From the NCBI RefSeq assembly GCF_018967865.2, contig NZ_JAHLZY020000001.1, positions 2,356,001 to 2,420,000 on the forward strand: a stretch of 64,000 bases of DNA. Reading direction: 5' to 3'. This document shows positions 2,597 to 50,641 of the stretch, piece by piece (position 1 is the first letter of the stretch; every line of letters starts with the position of its first letter). A program made the position numbers and the translations under genes. This stretch comes from Hymenobacter siberiensis. Its GTDB lineage: Bacteria > Bacteroidota > Bacteroidia > Cytophagales > Hymenobacteraceae. Under the pieces are notes generated by a model. The model ran no database searches, was not told the DNA's origin, and worked only from the letters and a program-made list of their open reading frames with translations.

Positions 2597-3163
2597 TCAG
2601 GTGGCTTTGTTGCGCAGGCGGCTCAGTGTTTCCGGGGCCATGCCCAGGTGCGAGGCGATGTGCTGCAGTGCCACCCGTTGAAATACCGTGGGGAAGTCGC
2701 GCAGCAGTAGTTCGTAGCGTTCGGCCGCCGTGTGCGAGCGCAGGTTCTGGGCCCGTTGCTCGCTGAGCACGTAATACTTTTCCAGCAGCCGTCGTCCCAC
2801 GTAGTTAAACTCGGGGAAATCGTGGTACAGCTGCTGCAGCTCGTTGTAGCTAACGGAGTGCACCACGGCGGGCTCCAGCAGTTCAAGGTATTCGGCTGAA
2901 GGCTGCTGCGCGAAGAAGCTCAGGATTGAAATCACGAAGTCGCCGGCCTGCATAAACCACGACGAAACCTCTCGGCCGTGCAGCAGCGTGTAGCCCCGCA
3001 CCAGTCCGGTTTCTAAAAAGTACACGCGCCGGGCCACATCGCCGGGCCGCAGCAACAGGTGACGGGCCGGCAGTATTTCCCGCCTTACTACAGCCGTCAG
3101 GGCCTGCGCCAATGCAGGACTAACCGGCTGAATAGCATCAATAAAAGCAAGGAATGGGACCAT
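2597..3163 (-). CDS. Crp/Fnr family transcriptional regulator
   Basis: The start chosen gives 188 residues beginning MVPFLAFI, the normal start for this family; the open frame extends further upstream but without family features. Residues 25-110 form a cyclic-nucleotide-binding-like beta-roll (LLLRPGDVARRVYFLETGL). The C terminus (about 155-185) has a helix-turn-helix with LQHIASHLGMAPETLSRLR. The strict cAMP phosphate-cassette Arg is not obvious, as in most Bacteroidota homologues, so the effector is unknown. It is divergent from the his operon and in tandem with the hydroxylase gene, so it may control that gene (inference). Confidence 0.85.
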   Translation of the reverse strand: MVPFLAFIDAIQPVSPALAQALTAVVRREILPARHLLLRPGDVARRVYFLETGLVRGYTLLHGREVSSWFMQAGDFVISILSFFAQQPSAEYLELLEPAVVHSVSYNELQQLYHDFPEFNYVGRRLLEKYYVLSEQRAQNLRSHTAAERYELLLRDFPTVFQRVALQHIASHLGMAPETLSRLRNKAT

Positions 3164-3275
3164 TTGCTGCGGATTTTGCGGTAAGTGCGCTGGTAGGCTG
3201 AAAAATATCTTTTGACCCGTACCAAACCTTTCGCCTCGCTTCGGGGTAGTGGCAGCAGAAACAAAATAAGGCCGG

Positions 3276-3311
3276 TTTGTGCCAACCGATACTATTTCCG
3301 TTTTACCTTTG
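3276..3311 (+). promoter_or_regulatory. his operon promoter, Bacteroidota type
   Basis: TACCTTTG at 3304-3311 fits the Bacteroidota -7 consensus TAnnTTTG. A TTTG at 3276-3279 could be the -33 element, although the 24-base spacing is slightly long. Start of transcription would fall near 3316-3319, almost on the ATG of the leader peptide at 3318. Confidence 0.5.
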
Positions 3312-3317
3312 TGCCCG

Positions 3318-3440
3318 ATGACCATCTTCACCGCCCTTCTTTGCGCTGTTGCCGCTGCCCCGCTCACGGGCCGTCGGGCAGTTGCGGGCGTGCATCATCA
3401 TCACCATCTGTGGGAGGCCGGGCTGTGTGCCGGTTGCTAG
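3318..3440 (+). CDS. hisL: his operon leader peptide (40 aa, five consecutive His)
   Basis: An ATG at 3318 opens a 40-codon frame that contains five His codons in a row at 3393-3407 (CAT CAT CAT CAC CAT) and ends at TAG 3438-3440, 165 bases before hisG. A His run in a short ORF just before hisG is the hallmark of translation-coupled attenuation: ribosome stalling at His codons under His-tRNA shortage changes the downstream fold. A promoter motif ends six bases before the ATG, so the message may be leaderless. A shorter frame starting at the GTG just before the His run is possible. The peptide itself has no expected function. Confidence 0.7.
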   Translation: MTIFTALLCAVAAAPLTGRRAVAGVHHHHHLWEAGLCAGC

Positions 3441-3454
3441 CTTAGCACCGGTTG

Positions 3455-3511
3455 CCCGAGTCTCCACCGCCGCGTTCGGGGTGTGTACCCCGGGCTTCAC
3501 TGTTTCATTTT
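3455..3511 (+). promoter_or_regulatory. candidate his attenuator with competing hairpins
   Basis: Two mutually exclusive stems follow the leader stop codon: CCCGA (3455-3459) with TCGGG (3476-3480), and a perfect 6-bp stem CGGGGT/ACCCCG with a GTGT loop at 3477-3492. The latter is followed by a T-rich stretch at 3501-3511, eight bases later, which is looser than a classical terminator. The pairing scheme fits attenuation but was worked out by eye. Confidence 0.4.
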
Positions 3512-3605
3512 GCGGGAAGTTCAGCCTTGCGCCACCTTGGTTGCGTTGGGGCGATATCCAACGTCTGTGCCCTAGTTGGGCAGCGCCCGCCAGTTACCCC
3601 ATTTC

Positions 3606-4457
3606 ATGCTCCGTTTAGCTATTCAAAAGTCCGGCCGTCTGAGCGAGGACTCCCTTGCCCTCATCCGCGAGTGCGGCATCAATTTCCTGAGCACCTCCTA
3701 CAAGCTCAAGACCGAAGCCACCAATTTTCCGCTCGAAATCCTGTTTCTTCGCGATGATGACATTCCCGGCTACGTAAAAGATGGCGTGGCCGACCTCGGC
3801 ATCGTAGGCCAGAACGTGCTGGTGGAAGCCGGCTACCCCAATCTGGAAGTCGAAACCCTTGGTTTCAGCAAGTGCCGCCTGAGCTTGGCCGTGCCCCGCG
3901 CCGATGCTTACCCGTCCATTGAGGTGCTGCAGGGCAAGAACATCGCCACCTCATACCCCAATATCCTTGGCCGCTACCTGGCCGAGCATGGCGTGCAGGC
4001 CAACCTGCACACCATCAGCGGCTCGGTCGAAATTGCGCCCAGTATCGGGCTGGCCGAGGCTATTTGTGATATCGTGAGCAGCGGCTCAACCTTGCTCGGC
4101 AACGGTCTGCGCGAAGTCGAAACCGTTTTCCGCTCTGAGGCCGTGCTCATCGCCCAGCCCAATCTCACGGCCGAGCAGCAGGACCTGCTGGAGCAGCTCC
4201 TGTTCCGGATGCAGGCCGTGCGCCGCGCCAAGCGCAGCAAATACATTGTGCTGAACGCCCCCGTGTCGGCCCTGGAGGAAGTGCGCCGGTTGCTGCCGGG
4301 CATCAAGTCGCCCACCATCACGCCGCTGGCCGAGGCCGGCTGGGTGTCGGTGCAGTCGGTGGTGCAGGAGGATGAGTTCTGGCACATCACCAGCCAACTC
4401 AAAGCCGTGGGTGCCGAGGGCATCCTCGTGTTACCCATTGAGAAGATGATTGCCTAA
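3606..4457 (+). CDS. hisG: ATP phosphoribosyltransferase, long form
   Basis: First enzyme of histidine synthesis: joins ATP and PRPP. The 283-residue protein starts MLRLAIQKSGRLSEDS, the typical HisG N terminus, and has the catalytic region with DLGIVGQNVL (about 71-80) and the PRPP loop around SGSTLLGNGLREVE (about 165-178). Its length and the C-terminal part ending in GAEGILVLPIEKM mark the long, HisZ-independent form with an ACT-like histidine-binding regulatory domain, so feedback inhibition by histidine is expected. It is the first structural gene of the operon; hisD-hisC follows after 11 bases. An in-frame extension upstream of 3606 lacks family similarity. Confidence 0.95.
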   Translation: MLRLAIQKSGRLSEDSLALIRECGINFLSTSYKLKTEATNFPLEILFLRDDDIPGYVKDGVADLGIVGQNVLVEAGYPNLEVETLGFSKCRLSLAVPRADAYPSIEVLQGKNIATSYPNILGRYLAEHGVQANLHTISGSVEIAPSIGLAEAICDIVSSGSTLLGNGLREVETVFRSEAVLIAQPNLTAEQQDLLEQLLFRMQAVRRAKRSKYIVLNAPVSALEEVRRLLPGIKSPTITPLAEAGWVSVQSVVQEDEFWHITSQLKAVGAEGILVLPIEKMIA

Positions 4458-4468
4458 CCCGGTTCGCC

Positions 4469-6868
4469 ATGCAGCTATATTCCTATCCCGACCCCAGCCT
4501 GTGGGCCACGCTCCAGCAGCGCCCCGCCGCCGCCGAAGCCCCCCAGGTTGCCGCCCGCGTCCGGGCCATTTTTGAGCAGGTACGCGCTGGCGGCGATGCC
4601 GCGCTGCTGACCTTAGCCGCTGAGCTCGACAAAGCCACGCTGACCAGCCTGCTGGTTTCCGAAGCTGAATTCGCTGCCGCCGCCGCGCAGGTTCCGGCCG
4701 AATTACAAGCCGCCATCCGCCAGGCCAAAACCAATATTGAAGCATTCCACACGGCCCAGCGCGAACCCGAATTGCGGGTTGAAACCATGCCGGGCGTGAT
4801 GTGCTCGCGCCGGGCCGTGCCGGTGCAGCGCGTGGGTCTGTACGTTCCCGGCGGTTCGGCTCCGCTCTTCAGTACGCTGCTGATGCTGGGCGTGCCGGCC
4901 CGCCTGGTTGGTTGCCCCGAGGTAGTGGTGTGCACTCCGCCGCAGGCCGATGGCTCGGTGAGCCCGGTTATTCTATTCGTGGCGCAGCTGCTGGGCATCG
5001 ATAAAGTGGTGAAAGCCGGTGGGGCGCAAGCCGTAGCGGCTCTGGCGCTGGGTACGGCCAGCGTGCCGGCTGTCGATAAGATTTTTGGTCCCGGCAACCG
5101 CTACGTGACCGCCGCCAAGCAGCTGGCCGCTGCCGAGTTCGGCGTAGCCATCGACATGCCCGCCGGCCCCTCGGAGGTGTTGGTTATCGCTGATGCCAGC
5201 GCTAACCCAGCCTTCGTGGCCGCCGACTTGCTGTCGCAGGCCGAGCACGGTCCCGATTCGCAGGTGGTGGTGCTGAGTGATTCCAGCGCGGTATTGGAGC
5301 AGGTGCAGGCCGAAGTGGCCCGCCAGCTGGTCCTGCTGCCCCGGCGCGACGTAGCCGCCCAGGCTTTGGAAAGTAGCCGTGCCATTTTGCTGGCCGATGC
5401 CAACCGCATGCTGGAGTTTTCCAACCAGTACGCCCCCGAGCACCTTATTCTGGCCACCGACAACGCCGACGCGCTGGCCGCCCAGGTCACCAACGCGGGC
5501 TCCGTTTTCCTGGGGCACCTTACGCCCGAAGCCGTGGGCGACTACGCCTCCGGCACCAATCACACGCTGCCCACCAGCGGCTACGCCCGCCAGTACAGCG
5601 GCGTGTCGCTCGATTCATTCGTAAAGAAAATTACCTTCCAGCGCCTCTCCGCCGAAGGCCTGCAAGCCATCGGCCCGGTAGTGGAGACCATGGCCGAAGC
5701 CGAAGGCTTGGCCGCGCACGCCCGCGCCGTAACCCTGCGACTGGCATCGCTGGATGCCAACAATCCAACCACTGCTCCCGCCAATCCCTACGCCGGCCTC
5801 ATTCGCCCCAGCGTAGTGCGGATGCAGCCGTATTCCTCGGCCCGCGATGAGTTTGAGGGCATGGCCCCGGTCATGCTCGATGCTAATGAGAACAGCCTGG
5901 GCTCCGTGGGTCCCGACGATTTCAGCCGCTACCCCGACCCGCACCAGCGCGCCATCAAGGCCGATTTGGCTCGGCTGAAAGGGGTGATGCCGAACCAGAT
6001 TTTCCTCGGCAACGGCTCCGACGAAGCCATCGACCTGCTCGTGCGCCTCACCTGTATGCCGGGCCAGGATGCCATCGTCATCTGCCCGCCCACCTACGGC
6101 ATGTACGAGGTGGCTGCCAACCTCAACGACGTGCGCGTGGAGCGCCTGCCGCTGACCGTCGATTTTCAGCTGCCCGCCGATGCCGCCGAAAAACTCGCGG
6201 CTTCCAATGCCAAGCTGGTTTTCCTGTGCTCGCCGAATAACCCCACCGGCAATTTGCTCGCGCAGGAAGCCGTTGAAACCATTCTGCGCAGCTTCCGGGG
6301 TCTGGTGATTGTTGATGAAGCCTACGCCGACTTTGCCGATGCGCCCAGCTGGATTACCCGCCTGGCCGAGTTTCCGCGCCTGGTCGTGATGCAGACCTTC
6401 TCCAAAGCCTGGGGCCTGGCCGGTTTGCGGCTGGGTGTGGCGTACGCCTCGGCCGAGCTCATTGCCTATCTTGATAAAATCAAGCCGCCCTATAACATCT
6501 CGGCCGCTACCCAGCAGCACGCGCTGGCGGCCCTGGCCGCCGCGCCGCGCCTGCCCGAAATGCGGACGGAGCTACTGGAAGGCCGGCGCTGGCTGTTTGC
6601 GCAGTTGGCCGAAGTAGCCATCGTGGAGCATATTTTTTCTTCCGATGCCAACTTCCTGCTGGTGCGCTTCACGGTCGATGCCACTGCCGTGTACGACCAG
6701 CTCCGCAGCCGCGGCATCGTGGTGCGCAACCGTACCACGCAGCCCGGCTGTGCCGGCTGCCTCCGCCTCACGGTGGGCACCACGGCCGAAAATAGCCAGC
6801 TCGTACAGGCGCTCGCAGAAATCGGGGCCGAAACCCAGGTTTCGATTGCCGCGTCCAATATCCAATAA
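4469..6868 (+). CDS. hisD-hisC: fused histidinol dehydrogenase - histidinol-phosphate aminotransferase
   Basis: A single 799-codon frame encodes two enzymes. Residues 1-428 are HisD, with the zinc ligands Gln257, His260, Asp358 and His417, the conserved Glu324-His325 pair and FGPGNRYVTAAK (206-217). Residues about 445-799 are HisC, a fold-type I PLP enzyme: NPTG (591-594), Asp616 and Tyr619 in VDEAYADF, Schiff-base Lys646 in TFSKAWGL and Arg654. A short linker rich in Asn, Thr, Ala and Pro (429-441) joins them. HisC acts at step seven and HisD at the last two steps. They are normally neighbours but separate, so the fusion is notable. No stop or internal start signal is needed to explain the frame. 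Confidence 0.93.
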   Translation: MQLYSYPDPSLWATLQQRPAAAEAPQVAARVRAIFEQVRAGGDAALLTLAAELDKATLTSLLVSEAEFAAAAAQVPAELQAAIRQAKTNIEAFHTAQREPELRVETMPGVMCSRRAVPVQRVGLYVPGGSAPLFSTLLMLGVPARLVGCPEVVVCTPPQADGSVSPVILFVAQLLGIDKVVKAGGAQAVAALALGTASVPAVDKIFGPGNRYVTAAKQLAAAEFGVAIDMPAGPSEVLVIADASANPAFVAADLLSQAEHGPDSQVVVLSDSSAVLEQVQAEVARQLVLLPRRDVAAQALESSRAILLADANRMLEFSNQYAPEHLILATDNADALAAQVTNAGSVFLGHLTPEAVGDYASGTNHTLPTSGYARQYSGVSLDSFVKKITFQRLSAEGLQAIGPVVETMAEAEGLAAHARAVTLRLASLDANNPTTAPANPYAGLIRPSVVRMQPYSSARDEFEGMAPVMLDANENSLGSVGPDDFSRYPDPHQRAIKADLARLKGVMPNQIFLGNGSDEAIDLLVRLTCMPGQDAIVICPPTYGMYEVAANLNDVRVERLPLTVDFQLPADAAEKLAASNAKLVFLCSPNNPTGNLLAQEAVETILRSFRGLVIVDEAYADFADAPSWITRLAEFPRLVVMQTFSKAWGLAGLRLGVAYASAELIAYLDKIKPPYNISAATQQHALAALAAAPRLPEMRTELLEGRRWLFAQLAEVAIVEHIFSSDANFLLVRFTVDATAVYDQLRSRGIVVRNRTTQPGCAGCLRLTVGTTAENSQLVQALAEIGAETQVSIAASNIQ

Positions 6869-6916
6869 GTACCGGGCTGACCCCCGTTTTTCTTGTACCT
6901 CGTTAATCCCATTGAG

Positions 6917-8023
6917 TTGAAAAAGGCGCTTTTTATCGACCGCGACGGCACTATCCTCGTCGAGCCCCAGCCCAGTCAGCAAATCGACGGCCTCACGCCC
7001 GATAAGTTTCAGTTCCTGCCCGGGGCTATCAGTGCGCTGGCGCGCATTGCCCGCGATTTACCCGAGTACGAGTTGGTGCTGGTAACCAACCAGGATGGGC
7101 TGGGCACCGCCAGCTTCCCGGAAGACACCTTCTGGCCGGCCCATCAGCTCATGCGCGATATTCTGGCCACCGAAGGCGTTCATTTCGCCGCCGAGCACGT
7201 CGACCGCAGCTTTCCGCACGAAGGCCTGCCCACCCGCAAGCCCGGCACGGGCCTGCTCGGTGAGTACCTCGACCCCGCCAACGGCTACGACCTGCCCAAT
7301 TCCTATGTTATCGGCGACCGGCTGACCGATGTCCAGCTTGCCGAGAACCTCGGCAGCCAGGCCATTCTGATAGGAGAGGAGCCCGACCCCCGCGCCGCCC
7401 TCACCACCACCAGCTGGGATGCCATTTACCATTTCCTGCGCTACCCGGCCCGCATCGCCGTTATCGAGCGCAACACCAACGAAACCCAGATTGCCATCCG
7501 CCTAAACCTGGACGGTACCGGCCAGACGGATATCCACACCGGCCTCGGTTTCTTCGACCACATGCTGGAGCAGCTAGGCCGGCACAGCGGAGTCGACTTA
7601 CACATAAGTGTAAAAGGCGATTTACACATTGATGAACATCACACCGTTGAGGATACGGCTCTGGCTCTTGGCACCGCCTTCTCTCAGGCCCTGGGCGACA
7701 AGCGCGGTCTGGCCCGCTATGGTTTCCTGCTGCCCATGGACGAAGCCCTGGCCCAGGCGGCCATCGACTTTGCCGGACGGCCCTGGCTGGTGTGGGACGC
7801 TGAATTTAAGCGCGAGCGGGTAGGGGACTTGCCTACCGAGCTGTTCTTCCACTTTTTCAAGTCCTTTACCGACAACTCCCGGGCTACACTCAACATTTCC
7901 TGCCAGGGCGATAATGAGCATCATAAGATTGAAGCTATTTTCAAAGCTGTAGCCAAGGCCATTAAAATGGCGTTGGTGCGTGATGCCTCTACGGCTATTC
8001 CCAGCACTAAGGGAATATTGTAG
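6917..8023 (+). CDS. hisB: bifunctional histidinol-phosphatase / imidazoleglycerol-phosphate dehydratase
   Basis: The TTG at 6917 was chosen because it gives MKKALFIDRDGT, the usual start; another TTG at 6893 would add eight residues. Residues 1-160 form the HAD phosphatase: nucleophile Asp8 and Asp10 in DRDGT, VTNQDG (about 57-62) and GDRLTDVQLA (133-142). The dehydratase follows from about 180: FDHMLEQL (213-220), metal-binding HHTVEDTALALG (241-252) and a second metal half-site with NEHHKIEAIFKA near the C terminus. All key residues are present. It carries out steps six and eight of the pathway. No ATG or strong ribosome binding site precedes it, 48 bases after the hisD-hisC stop. Confidence 0.93.
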   Translation: MKKALFIDRDGTILVEPQPSQQIDGLTPDKFQFLPGAISALARIARDLPEYELVLVTNQDGLGTASFPEDTFWPAHQLMRDILATEGVHFAAEHVDRSFPHEGLPTRKPGTGLLGEYLDPANGYDLPNSYVIGDRLTDVQLAENLGSQAILIGEEPDPRAALTTTSWDAIYHFLRYPARIAVIERNTNETQIAIRLNLDGTGQTDIHTGLGFFDHMLEQLGRHSGVDLHISVKGDLHIDEHHTVEDTALALGTAFSQALGDKRGLARYGFLLPMDEALAQAAIDFAGRPWLVWDAEFKRERVGDLPTELFFHFFKSFTDNSRATLNISCQGDNEHHKIEAIFKAVAKAIKMALVRDASTAIPSTKGIL

Positions 8024-8053
8024 CAGCGCATAGCTAGGCAATTTATTGTATAT

Positions 8054-8086
8054 CCAAATGAGTAAAAAAAATTATTATTCATTTGG
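8054..8086 (+). promoter_or_regulatory. AT-rich hairpin between hisB and hisH
   Basis: CCAAATGA (8054-8061) pairs perfectly with TCATTTGG (8079-8086) around an A/T loop of 17 bases. It is AT-rich in a GC-rich operon and ends 19 bases before hisH. It lacks a T-run, so is more likely an mRNA processing, stability or translation element than a terminator (inference). Confidence 0.35.
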
Positions 8087-8104
8087 GTTAATCAGGAATC
8101 GATT

Positions 8105-8692
8105 ATGGAAATCGCAGTAGTAGATTACAAAGGGGGCAACGTGCAATCAGTACTCTTTGCTTTGGAGCGGTTGGGTGCGCAATCTATTCTTACCGCCGAC
8201 CCCGAAGTATTGCGGCGCGCCGATAAGGTGCTTTTTCCGGGCGAAGGGGAAGCCTCATCGGCTATGCAGGCCTTGCAGGAGTCGGGCCTCGACTTGGTGC
8301 TGCCCACCCTCACCCAGCCGTTCCTGGGCATCTGTCTGGGTATGCAGCTGCTGGGCACGCACAGCGATGAGAACGATACGCCCATGCTCGGGCTGCTGCC
8401 TTTTCAGGTGCAGCGGTTCGTCGCCGACGCGGACCACAAAGTCCCCCATATGGGTTGGAACAACCTGCAGGATTTACGCGGGCCATTGCTGGCTGGGCTT
8501 ACCGAGGCCGACCACGTGTACTTTGTGCACAGCTATTATGCCCCCGTGGGGCCATATACCATTGCGCAGGCCGAGCATCCCGCCCCATTTAGCGCGGCGG
8601 TACAACACCGCAACTTCTACGGCGTGCAGTTTCACACCGAGAAAAGCGGGGGCGTGGGCACGCGCATTCTGGCCAATTTTCTGGCGCTGTAG
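8105..8692 (+). CDS. hisH: imidazole glycerol phosphate synthase, glutaminase subunit
   Basis: A 195-residue class I glutamine amidotransferase. The triad is visible: Cys77 in GICLGMQLLG, and His177 and Glu179 in VQFHTEKSG. It hydrolyses glutamine and passes ammonia to HisF, the partner encoded two genes downstream. The N terminus MEIAVVDYKGGNVQSV is typical. Translation starts at an ATG 81 bases after hisB. Confidence 0.95.
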   Translation: MEIAVVDYKGGNVQSVLFALERLGAQSILTADPEVLRRADKVLFPGEGEASSAMQALQESGLDLVLPTLTQPFLGICLGMQLLGTHSDENDTPMLGLLPFQVQRFVADADHKVPHMGWNNLQDLRGPLLAGLTEADHVYFVHSYYAPVGPYTIAQAEHPAPFSAAVQHRNFYGVQFHTEKSGGVGTRILANFLAL

Positions 8693-8724
8693 CATTCGTT
8701 CATCCTCAAACAAGAACCTACCCA

Positions 8725-9441
8725 GTGGAGATTATCCCTGCTATCGACCTCATCAACGGCCAGTGCGTCCGGCTGAGTGCCGGTGATTTTGCCCGGCAAA
8801 CCACCTATGATGCCGACCCCGTAGCCGTTGCCCGGCGTTTTGCCGATGCGGGGCTGCGCCGCCTGCACTTAGTCGACCTCGACGGTGCCCGCGCCGGCCA
8901 GCCGGTCAACCTGGCCGTACTGGAAGCCATTGCCAGTCAAACCAGTCTCGATATTGACGCCGGCGGGGGAATTCAAACGGCGGCGGCTTTGGTGCAGGTG
9001 CTGGGTGCCGGGGCTGCCCACGCTACCGCTGGCAGCCTGGCCGTTCGCGAGCCTGCCACCGTGCAGGCCTGGCTGGCGCAGTACGGGTCCGATACTATTT
9101 TTCTCGGAGCCGACTACAAAGGTGCCCACATCGTTATCAATGCCTGGGTTGACCAGAGCGACCTGACACTGACCGGCTTCGTGGCCGATTACCTGGCGGC
9201 CGGCGGCACCACCTTTATCTGCACCGACGTGAGCAAAGACGGCCTGCTGCAAGGCCCATCGCTGCCCACCTACCGTTTGCTGGTGGAGCAGTTTCCTACG
9301 GCGCGCTTTATTGCCAGCGGCGGCGTGACCACCATTGGCGACCTGGAACTCCTTGTGGAGGCCGGTATGCACGGAGCCATCATCGGCAAGGCGCTCTACG
9401 AGGGCACCATTGCGTTGGCCGATTTGCAGCGGTTCCTGTAG
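8725..9441 (+). CDS. hisA: ProFAR isomerase
   Basis: A 238-residue (beta/alpha)8 barrel isomerase that acts on ProFAR. It begins at GTG with MEIIPAIDLINGQCVRL, carrying the first catalytic Asp (Asp8) at the end of strand 1; the second lies in TDVSKDGLLQGP (about 169-180). The phosphate loops GGGIQ and SGGVT are present. The GTG is 32 bases after the hisH stop. It is a paralogue of HisF, encoded next. Confidence 0.95.
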   Translation: MEIIPAIDLINGQCVRLSAGDFARQTTYDADPVAVARRFADAGLRRLHLVDLDGARAGQPVNLAVLEAIASQTSLDIDAGGGIQTAAALVQVLGAGAAHATAGSLAVREPATVQAWLAQYGSDTIFLGADYKGAHIVINAWVDQSDLTLTGFVADYLAAGGTTFICTDVSKDGLLQGPSLPTYRLLVEQFPTARFIASGGVTTIGDLELLVEAGMHGAIIGKALYEGTIALADLQRFL

Positions 9442-9480
9442 TAGATTTTGATGCCTAGCATTTAGTAAATATCCCTCTCT

Positions 9481-10236
9481 GTGGTTAAGAAAAGACTTAT
9501 TCCCTGCCTTGATGTCCGCGACGGTCGTACCGTAAAGGGCATTCAATTTGAAGGCCTGCGTGATGCCGGAGACCCTGTGGCGCTGGCGGCCCGCTACGCT
9601 CTCGAAGGAGCCGATGAGCTGGTATTTCTCGACATCACGGCCACCAATCAGCGTCGGCAGCCGCTGACGGAGCTGGTGCGTGACATCGCCCGCGTGCTGG
9701 ATATTCCTTTCACCGTGGGCGGCGGCATCAGTACCGTGGCCGACGTGGAAGCCCTGCTGCTGAGCGGTGCCGATAAGGTTTCCATCAACTCCGCCGCCTT
9801 GGCTCGTCCCGCTTTCATATCGGATTTAGCCCGGCGTTTCGGTTCCCAGTGCGTAGTAGTGGCAGTCGATGCCCGGTTGGTGGACCAAGAGTGGCAGGTA
9901 ATGACCCGCGCCGGAACTACGCCCACAGGCCGCCAGGCCGTAGACTGGTGCCGCATGGCCGCCGATTTGGGGGCCGGTGAGCTGCTGCTCACGTCAATGA
10001 GCCACGACGGCACCAAGGCCGGTTTCGCGCTGGAACTGACCCGGGCGGTCAGCGACGCCGTATCCGTTCCTGTCATTGCCTCCGGTGGTGCTGGCCAGCC
10101 TTCTGATTTTACCGCTGTTTTCGAAGCTGGCGGGGCGGATGCGGCATTGGCGGCCAGCATTTTCCACTTTAACGAAACCGCTTTGCCGGCGCTGAAGCAA
10201 TATCTGCACACGGCAGGAATTGCCGTGCGCCTGTAA
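9481..10236 (+). CDS. hisF: imidazole glycerol phosphate synthase, cyclase subunit
   Basis: A 251-residue barrel that begins at GTG with MVKKRLIPCLDVRDGRTVKG. Catalytic Asp11 is in CLDVRDG, and the second Asp is in VVAVDAR (about residue 129). Phosphate-binding GGGIS and SGGAG loops are present. It cyclises PRFAR with ammonia from HisH, giving IGP and AICAR. It lies 39 bases after hisA. Confidence 0.95.
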   Translation: MVKKRLIPCLDVRDGRTVKGIQFEGLRDAGDPVALAARYALEGADELVFLDITATNQRRQPLTELVRDIARVLDIPFTVGGGISTVADVEALLLSGADKVSINSAALARPAFISDLARRFGSQCVVVAVDARLVDQEWQVMTRAGTTPTGRQAVDWCRMAADLGAGELLLTSMSHDGTKAGFALELTRAVSDAVSVPVIASGGAGQPSDFTAVFEAGGADAALAASIFHFNETALPALKQYLHTAGIAVRL

Positions 10237-10271
10237 CATTTGTGTATATAATATTTTCTAACTTCTTGTTT

Positions 10272-10940
10272 ATGTCTGCTGCTTCCACCTCGCCCACTAG
10301 TCTTCAGTTTGATGCATCTACCGGTTTGGCCCCGGCCATTATTCAGGATGCTGATACCGGGCAGGTGCTGATGCTTGGGTACTTCAACGCCGAAGCCTGG
10401 GCCAAAACGCAGCAGGAGGGACGTGTCACGTTCTTTTCAAGGTCGAAAAACCGCCTTTGGACCAAAGGCGAATCCAGCGGTAATTATCTCACGGTAGTTA
10501 GCACGCATATCGACTGCGATGCGGATACTGTGCTGGTTCGGGCCCTGCCGGCTGGTCCGACGTGCCATCGTGGTACGGTGAGTTGCTTTGTGCAGCCGGA
10601 ACAACTGCAGGCACCAGCCGCGCCAATCGGCTTTCTGGGCGCGTTGGAACGGTTGATTGTGGAGCGGCAGCAGTTTCCGGAGCGTGCCCCCACGTCCTAT
10701 ACTGTTTCACTCTTCAACAAAGGCCTGCCCAAAATTGCCCAAAAAGTAGGAGAGGAGGCCGTTGAAACGGTTATTGATGCCGTAGCCGGCCATCGCGAAA
10801 CCCTGCCGGGCGAAGTAGCTGATTTGCTTTACCATCTGCTCGTGCTGCTCGTGGCCTCGGGCGTTTCCATGGCTGAAGTTATCGAGGTGCTGCAGGAGCG
10901 CCACCGCCTGCCCAACACCCGGCATTTGACGGAAGGATAA
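10272..10940 (+). CDS. hisIE: bifunctional phosphoribosyl-AMP cyclohydrolase / phosphoribosyl-ATP pyrophosphatase
   Basis: The ATG at 10272 gives 222 residues; a GTG 30 bases earlier is less likely. The HisI part (about 10-115) has SRSKNRLWTKGESSGN and the metal site DCDADTVLVR followed by the zinc Cys in PTCHRGTVSCF. The HisE part (about 130-222) has the all-alpha MazG-like pattern VGEEAVETVIDA and EVADLLYHLLVLL with Glu/Asp metal ligands. The enzyme does steps two and three. It is the last gene of the operon; no obvious terminator follows before the degraded region. Confidence 0.93.
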   Translation: MSAASTSPTSLQFDASTGLAPAIIQDADTGQVLMLGYFNAEAWAKTQQEGRVTFFSRSKNRLWTKGESSGNYLTVVSTHIDCDADTVLVRALPAGPTCHRGTVSCFVQPEQLQAPAAPIGFLGALERLIVERQQFPERAPTSYTVSLFNKGLPKIAQKVGEEAVETVIDAVAGHRETLPGEVADLLYHLLVLLVASGVSMAEVIEVLQERHRLPNTRHLTEG

Positions 10941-50516: not shown

Positions 50517-50526
50517 CCCCCAGAAT

Positions 50527-50590
50527 ACGGTGATGGATTGCCACCGCGAACCGCCGGAGCCCCGCGCCCCGCGCTGATGATTCCTACGAA
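50527..50590 (+). promoter_or_regulatory. fluoride riboswitch (crcB motif)
   Basis: It shows the conserved order of the crcB aptamer: ACGGTGATGG, then CCACC closing the first stem, GCGAACCGCC, a GC-rich hairpin loop and GCTGATGATTCCTACG. The conserved GCUGAUGA...CCUAC end and the AACCGCC element match the family closely. The start codon of the CLC gene is 52 bases later, so control could be by translation or termination. Fluoride binding is expected to turn expression on. Confidence 0.85.
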
Positions 50591-50641
50591 ACGGGCGGCC
50601 ACCGGGGCCGCGCCGCATAGCTCATCATACCGTTCGCCCCC

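Follow-up and report, generated by a model that had tools for sequence, protein, structure and literature searches.

Control of the his operon by attenuation has long been known in Escherichia coli and other enterobacteria, in which the hisL leader places consecutive His codons before hisG, together with alternative RNA folds and a terminator ahead of the first structural gene. An attenuator leader of another kind comes from the alphaproteobacterium Sinorhizobium meliloti. In that species, going by the portions of the articles drawn on here and below, the trpL attenuator RNA has a 5' end that coincides with the ATG of the leader ORF (PMC7298713). Histidine leader peptides in bacilli stand before the hisS paralogues hisZ and hisS*, and were added in 2010 to leader peptide systems that, besides ermC, had been shown only in Proteobacteria and Actinobacteria (PMC2965389).

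For Bacteroidota, the available portion of a 2021 study of Flavobacterium psychrophilum finds "strong clues" of attenuation by leader peptides ahead of amino-acid operons, and describes a structured element that lies upstream of hisG and occurs in other genera of Flavobacteriaceae (PMC9723704). In Bacteroides, leader-peptide-like short ORFs lie within long 5' UTRs (PMC7366714), and short leader genes located 11-14 bp from the gene, a different arrangement, have been counted in many phyla including Bacteroidetes (PMC4833913). The accessible text of a work that treats the his genes of the phylum does so without the word "leader", its one mention of attenuation being that upstream of hisG in Salmonella enterica and E. 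coli (PMC8305728). A literature search, largely without subscription papers, returned no report of the leader presented here in Hymenobacter or of a class-wide hisG leader. The preliminary description of the locus presented below had called attenuation by ribosome stalling little described for Bacteroidota, which calls for the qualification that the hisG element and attenuation had already been flagged in Flavobacterium (PMC9723704, as far as its available portion goes).

Upstream of hisG in Hymenobacter siberiensis, the window (here, the whole stretch of 64,000 nucleotides that was analysed, positions 2,356,001 to 2,420,000 of contig NZ_JAHLZY020000001.1) contains a His-rich leader ORF that probably belongs to a classical ribosome-stalling attenuator of the his operon, responding to charged tRNA-His (Table 1). 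The basis for this reading in the sequence consists of the leader, its promoter element, the conserved frame and His run, the conserved pairing of helix A, the overlapping folds and the strong terminators that follow the leader in most of the class sample. Translation from the ATG at 3318 gives the 40-codon peptide MTIFTALLCAVAAAPLTGRRAVAGVHHHHHLWEAGLCAGC, with a TAG stop at 3438-3440 followed by 165 bases (3441-3605) before the hisG ATG at 3606, and six bases separate TACCTTTG from the leader ATG. When reread, these coordinates agreed with the preliminary description, which had placed the end of a 40-codon ORF with five consecutive His codons 165 bases before hisG and its ATG six bases after the -7 element. 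A program-made ORF list gives a longer frame of 53 codons from a GTG at 3279, upstream of the -7 box, which was set aside as the leader. Two points favour the ATG at 3318: the box separates it from the GTG, and box-to-ATG distances in relatives span a narrow range. A divergent gene on the minus strand (2597-3157), with a cyclic-nucleotide-binding domain, has its upstream region in common with the leader promoter.

Table 1. Features of the his leader region and operon, in window coordinates.
Feature	Position	Strand	Remarks
-7 promoter element TACCTTTG (TAnnTTTG type)	3304..3311	+	Read directly
Leader peptide ORF, 40 codons + TAG	3318..3440	+	Read directly; counterparts in 110/110 family regions
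Five consecutive His codons (CAT CAT CAT CAC CAT), putative sensor codons	3393..3407	+	Run kept, N-terminal flank variable
Helix A, covering leader end and stop codon	3413..3465	+	-31.5 kcal/mol; putative antiterminator (design I) or protector hairpin (design II)
Putative terminator-side hairpin of design I, 3454-3461 with 3487-3495	3454..3495	+	-17.9 kcal/mol
Short local hairpin CGGGGU/ACCCCG, putative terminator of design II	3477..3492	+	-9.2 kcal/mol
U-rich stretch TTCACTGTTTCATTTT	3496..3511	+	Direct reading; weak in the window
hisG, first operon gene	3606..4457	+	Pfam PF01634 and PF08029 above cut-offs
Rest of operon: hisD-hisC (one ORF), hisB, hisH, hisA, hisF, hisIE	4469..10940	+	NCBIfam matches

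The HisG encoded here is 100% identical to that of H. artigasi and 97% identical to that of H. terricola, and within the operon only the HisA model TIGR00007 was matched just below its cut-off (215.7 vs 228.95). The hisD-hisC gene is a single 799-codon ORF on the plus strand (4469-6868; NCBIfam hisD 31-424, hisC 446-785). The same two genes share one frame with no stop between them in 12 of the 20 relatives checked, all Hymenobacter, and are separate in the other eight, five having them in different frames and three having stops between. Three genomes (G173, G174 and G199) gave hisG matches in 2-3 pieces, which suggests frameshifts or assembly errors.

Conservation of the leader was assessed with a rule that called an ATG ORF of 8-60 codons within 400 nt of hisG and with at least four His in seven. 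HisG was found in 147 of 150 genomes of the family sample, and the upstream regions read, 110 of these 147, included 109 with a leader by rule; the remaining one (L007) has HHRH in the same place, identified by eye. Further Hymenobacter loci (L111-L123) have the leader in 12 of 13 cases, the exception being L123 (Hymenobacter G155), which has no His leader upstream of hisG and whose sequence close to the gene is unlike that of its relatives, and all six regions read later (L295-L300, five of which come from genomes not represented before) have it as well. In the order sample, with hisG in 91 of 118 genomes, the rule called a leader in only five of 40 regions from other families, including all three sampled from family f19, and three more resemble weaker versions by eye (L124, L136, L142). 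Nine of these 40 regions lack a leader but show a TAnnTTTG box at most about 55 bases from hisG, a count to be read with the fact that chance boxes occur too. In the class sample, with hisG in 56 of 119 genomes and 40 regions read (39 outside the window's order and L281 inside it), 30 have a leader by rule and 34 have at least three His in seven. The leader is thus spread over the class Bacteroidia and patchy in the window's own order.

Several controls bear on these counts. Shuffled sequences gave mean counts under the leader rule of 0.2 (family), 0.04 (order) and 0.06 (class), and the antisense strand gave no leader by rule in any of the three sets. With the same rule applied to other residues, the next commonest was Ala in the family (41/110) and Ser in the class (5/40). 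A chance His run is ruled out by the conservation, the shuffles and the antisense control. Within the window's clade the frame and the His run are kept and the N-terminal residues vary, the pattern of a conserved run with variable flanks that the preliminary description had named as support, a run not conserved in relatives having been its refuting condition; gaps inside the ORF in a 14-sequence clade alignment measure 3 and 15 bases.

Conservation of the frame, and of C-terminal motifs within clades (LWEAGLCAGC; HHGHHSSF), would also be seen if the ORF encoded a functional small His-rich peptide, for example a metal-binding one, with only an incidental link to hisG. We regard this as highly improbable, since the peptides of the class sample show no apparent relation to the family's beyond the His run, terminators lie 3' of the leader in the class sample, and helix A encodes the conserved C-terminal residues in the window's clade, for which RNA pairing can account.

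The promoter was examined with the Bacteroidota -7 consensus TAnnTTTG, which has six fixed positions. All six were matched in 103 of the 109 family loci with a rule-called leader and five in the other six, by a script that took the best-scoring box and ATG within 30 nt and so favoured good boxes. The leader ATG lies 6-25 nt 3' of such a box in all 109 loci. In 63 of them the gap is 6-11 nt; the other 46 have 16-25 nt and appear to have an ordinary short leader. In the window, the -33 match is weak (TGTG, spacing 22). With the -7 box placed at -12 to -5, as in the available portion of the F. psychrophilum study (PMC9723704), the start site is predicted near 3316, so the window transcript should begin about 2 nt 5' of the leader ATG, and the leader mRNA should be nearly leaderless. 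The earlier suggestion that the ribosome may load at the 5' end agrees with the short gap in the 63 loci, the other 46 having the longer one.

In the mechanism that we propose, RNA polymerase would start about 2 nt 5' of the leader ATG, and a ribosome would load at or near the 5' end and translate the 40 codons close behind the polymerase. When charged tRNA-His is scarce, the ribosome would stall in the five His codons, a fold that blocks the terminator would win, and transcription would continue into hisG. When histidine is plentiful, the ribosome would reach the stop codon, the terminator side would fold, and transcription would presumably end before hisG. Two designs could produce this switch. 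In design I, with two folds, helix A would be the antiterminator and the pairing of 3454-3461 with 3487-3495 the terminator. In design II, the classical arrangement with three helices, the stop state would combine helix A with the 3477-3492 hairpin, and the antiterminator would pair approximately 3454-3460 with 3475-3481.

Helix A consists of the arms 3413-3423/3429-3439 and 3443-3452/3454-3465. It and the 3454-3495 fold are mutually exclusive because 3454-3461 is common to both. The local hairpin pairs 3477-3482 with 3487-3492, and competes with the 3454-3495 hairpin and not with helix A. The preliminary description had spoken of two mutually exclusive hairpins after the leader; this is borne out for helix A and the 3454-3495 fold, and the third hairpin can coexist with helix A. 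The minimum-energy fold of the window does contain helix A together with a local hairpin, a prediction that suits design II and counts against design I. Folding of the whole leader was not better than that of shuffled sequences (z -1.0; 26 of 200 shuffles as good).

Pairing was followed through an alignment (A1) of 27 of 40 anchored sequences; those left out were L015 and 12 variants whose stop codon comes earlier. Helix A is paired in 98.2% of cells (99.3% for its helix 1), compared with 34-50% when slid. Where it varies, the change affects one side only or leaves the bases unpaired; not a single pair has changed on both sides in this clade, and 500 of 500 shuffles scored as high, which gives no covariation support. 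The hairpin of design I is paired in 91.2% of cells over the same 27 relatives, with two pairs changed on both sides; its covariation score was reached by 8 of 500 shuffles and its count of two-side-changed pairs by 250 of 500. One of its column pairs (64/97) is CG in 14 sequences, UG in 7, UA in 4 and other in 2, and another (62/99) is unpaired in 9 of 27, the window included. The best-scoring hairpin with a T-rich tail starts at the 3454 arm in 11 of the 15 clade members L001-L015, a count made without shuffle control. The local hairpin (columns 82-86 with 100-104) is 91.7% paired, with CG, UG, UA and GC types; its covariation score was reached by 0 of 500 shuffles and its two-side-changed pairs by 67 of 500, and its register is shifted in the window itself.

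The U-rich stretch is weak in the window. A simple consensus terminator scan of the plus strand after the leader found none in the window, and a weak U-tract is seen in L001-L003 and L005. The relatives L013 and L014 have TTTTTCTTCATTTT at the same position, a better U-tract than that of the window. A weak tract would be expected of an attenuator that has decayed in the window's lineage, the leader and helix A persisting after termination ceased to be effective; as the 27 aligned relatives retain both the His codons and helix A, we give this the least credence of the explanations considered.

Clearer terminators were found in the class sample. A strong terminator was defined as a hairpin at or below -7 kcal/mol plus five or more T in eight, located between the leader stop and hisG. 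Of the 34 class loci that have a leader, 28 contain such an intrinsic terminator, compared with 3.6 in shuffles, and many have AAGGGCTTACC-like stems. A duplex between the leader-stop region and the 5' arm of the terminator has a z of -2 or lower in 12 of the 28 class loci (mononucleotide shuffles). In 25 of 28 loci this duplex falls at least partly within the footprint of a ribosome positioned on the stop codon, but the test is weak because that footprint takes up much of the segment searched. Judged on these predicted pairings, the layout in the class is as expected of an attenuator, in that a ribosome at the stop codon would free the terminator and an earlier stall would leave the antiterminator free.

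These terminators also weigh on the nature of the output. The leader could sense histidine by stalling and act by exposing the mRNA to Rho or protecting it, or through initiation of hisG translation, rather than through intrinsic termination, and the weak U-tract, the failure to find a consensus terminator in the window and the ambiguous folding of its GC-rich hairpins would fit such an output. Set against this are the strong hairpin and T-run terminators that 28 of 34 class loci with a leader have where they would be expected, and the better U-tract of L013 and L014; for translational control in particular, a hisG start 110 bases past the hairpin would be far for direct action on the start codon. 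We consider a Rho or translational output unlikely.

Between the two designs we lean slightly towards design I. It fits best in two of the seven loci of Adhaeribacter (genus g4; L107 and L108), in which GAGGAAT has two alternative partners, the segment that immediately follows the His codons and the other strand of the stem GAGGAATAAT/ATTATTCCTC, behind which stands ATTTTT or TTTTTT; the two-fold layout is clear in these sequences. Equilibrium folding with a masked ribosome separated neither the states nor the designs, whether in 38 sequences or in the 28 class loci. For the 38 sequences, mean pairing of the bases before the U-tract was 0.58 with an early stall, 0.62 with a late stall and 0.57 at the stop codon, values that include seven rows with U@80 in which the automatic tract start was plainly wrong; for the class loci it was 0.93 stalled and 0.96 at the stop, with a difference above 0.2 in one of 28. 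As a separate observation, the hisG leaders of 16 Rufibacter loci among L074-L101 have a second hairpin with apparent compensatory changes, followed in most by a CTATCTTTGTTTT-like sequence that could be a terminator or a second promoter.

The same genome was inspected for other amino-acid leaders. Upstream of trpE (L285 600-1000) lies a Trp leader, MNSHRTSQAWWWQLRNIGPACLCA, with WWW, and a stem GCCCGGC...GCCGGGC followed by TTTTTTT, a textbook intrinsic terminator. A Phe/Tyr-rich leader ORF, MPGFSMTTLHHVFFTYCYYFFYLKKPALCCQC, lies just before pheA (L292 1310-1488). Going by their sequences, these two candidate leaders hint at a wider leader habit in the genome. Inspection of the 1500 bases preceding the LeuA and IlvD domain matches revealed no Leu or Ile leader, and an LLLLL ORF (L294), separated from the LeuA match by about 3.8 kb and by other ORFs, was dropped. 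Thr-rich ORFs were seen upstream of one homoserine dehydrogenase match (L290).

Attenuation requires a ribosome that tightly trails RNA polymerase, and we know of no proof of transcription-translation coupling in Bacteroidota. If the proposed mechanism is correct, a class-wide attenuator would be evidence that coupling works in this phylum and a ready reporter with which to measure it, and would provide a histidine-controlled, protein-free switch for Bacteroidota genetics; the leader genes are too small for routine annotation. According to the available portion of the F. psychrophilum study, Bacteroidota largely lack Shine-Dalgarno signals (PMC9723704), and because of this a pioneer ribosome would enter at the naked 5' end, tracking the polymerase from the first bases. 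Box-to-ATG gaps of at most 12 nt are present in 63 of 109 family loci and, among the 27 class loci whose box is perfect, in 12; by comparison, the portions of the two studies drawn on give a leaderless share of 5.5% in F. psychrophilum (PMC9723704), and in Bacteroides about 3.7% of 5' UTRs are shorter than 10 nt (PMC7366714). We advance tentatively, as possible and somewhat short of probable, the broader reading that His-codon attenuation of hisG is an old and widespread control of the class Bacteroidia, in which leader mRNAs often start at or a few bases from the ATG and the pioneer ribosome loads on the naked 5' end.

Finally, the leader was compared with known RNA families and systems. At Rfam gathering scores the only matches in the whole window were a tRNA and a fluoride riboswitch (50520-50593, plus strand), both elsewhere, with no His_leader (RF00514) among them, and 20 loci (19 his, one trp) gave no matches. 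At E values up to 10, the leader region 3200-3700 gave four unrelated weak matches and again no His_leader; a T-box riboswitch is absent from these four and from the two gathering-level matches of the window. Identity with a known RNA family was therefore set aside, no Rfam family matching the leader. Like enterobacterial hisL, the window has a leader with a His run before hisG and alternative folds; unlike in hisL, the leader begins some 2 nt away from where transcription is predicted to start, and the folds differ in sequence and may comprise two helices rather than three. The S. meliloti trpL attenuator likewise has its RNA start at the leader ATG, with Trp rather than His as the amino acid (PMC7298713), and the histidine leaders of bacilli likewise carry a His run in a short ORF ahead of a gene under attenuation, in another host and before other genes (PMC2965389). 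Closest in phylum and gene are the 5' elements of hisG and pheA in F. psychrophilum, which had no Rfam hit; leader-peptide attenuation was proposed there for amino-acid operons, and the available portion of that study describes the hisG element without a leader sequence, a fold or a spread beyond Flavobacteriaceae (PMC9723704). The control is thus of a known kind, and the leader is a widespread, little-described member of it.
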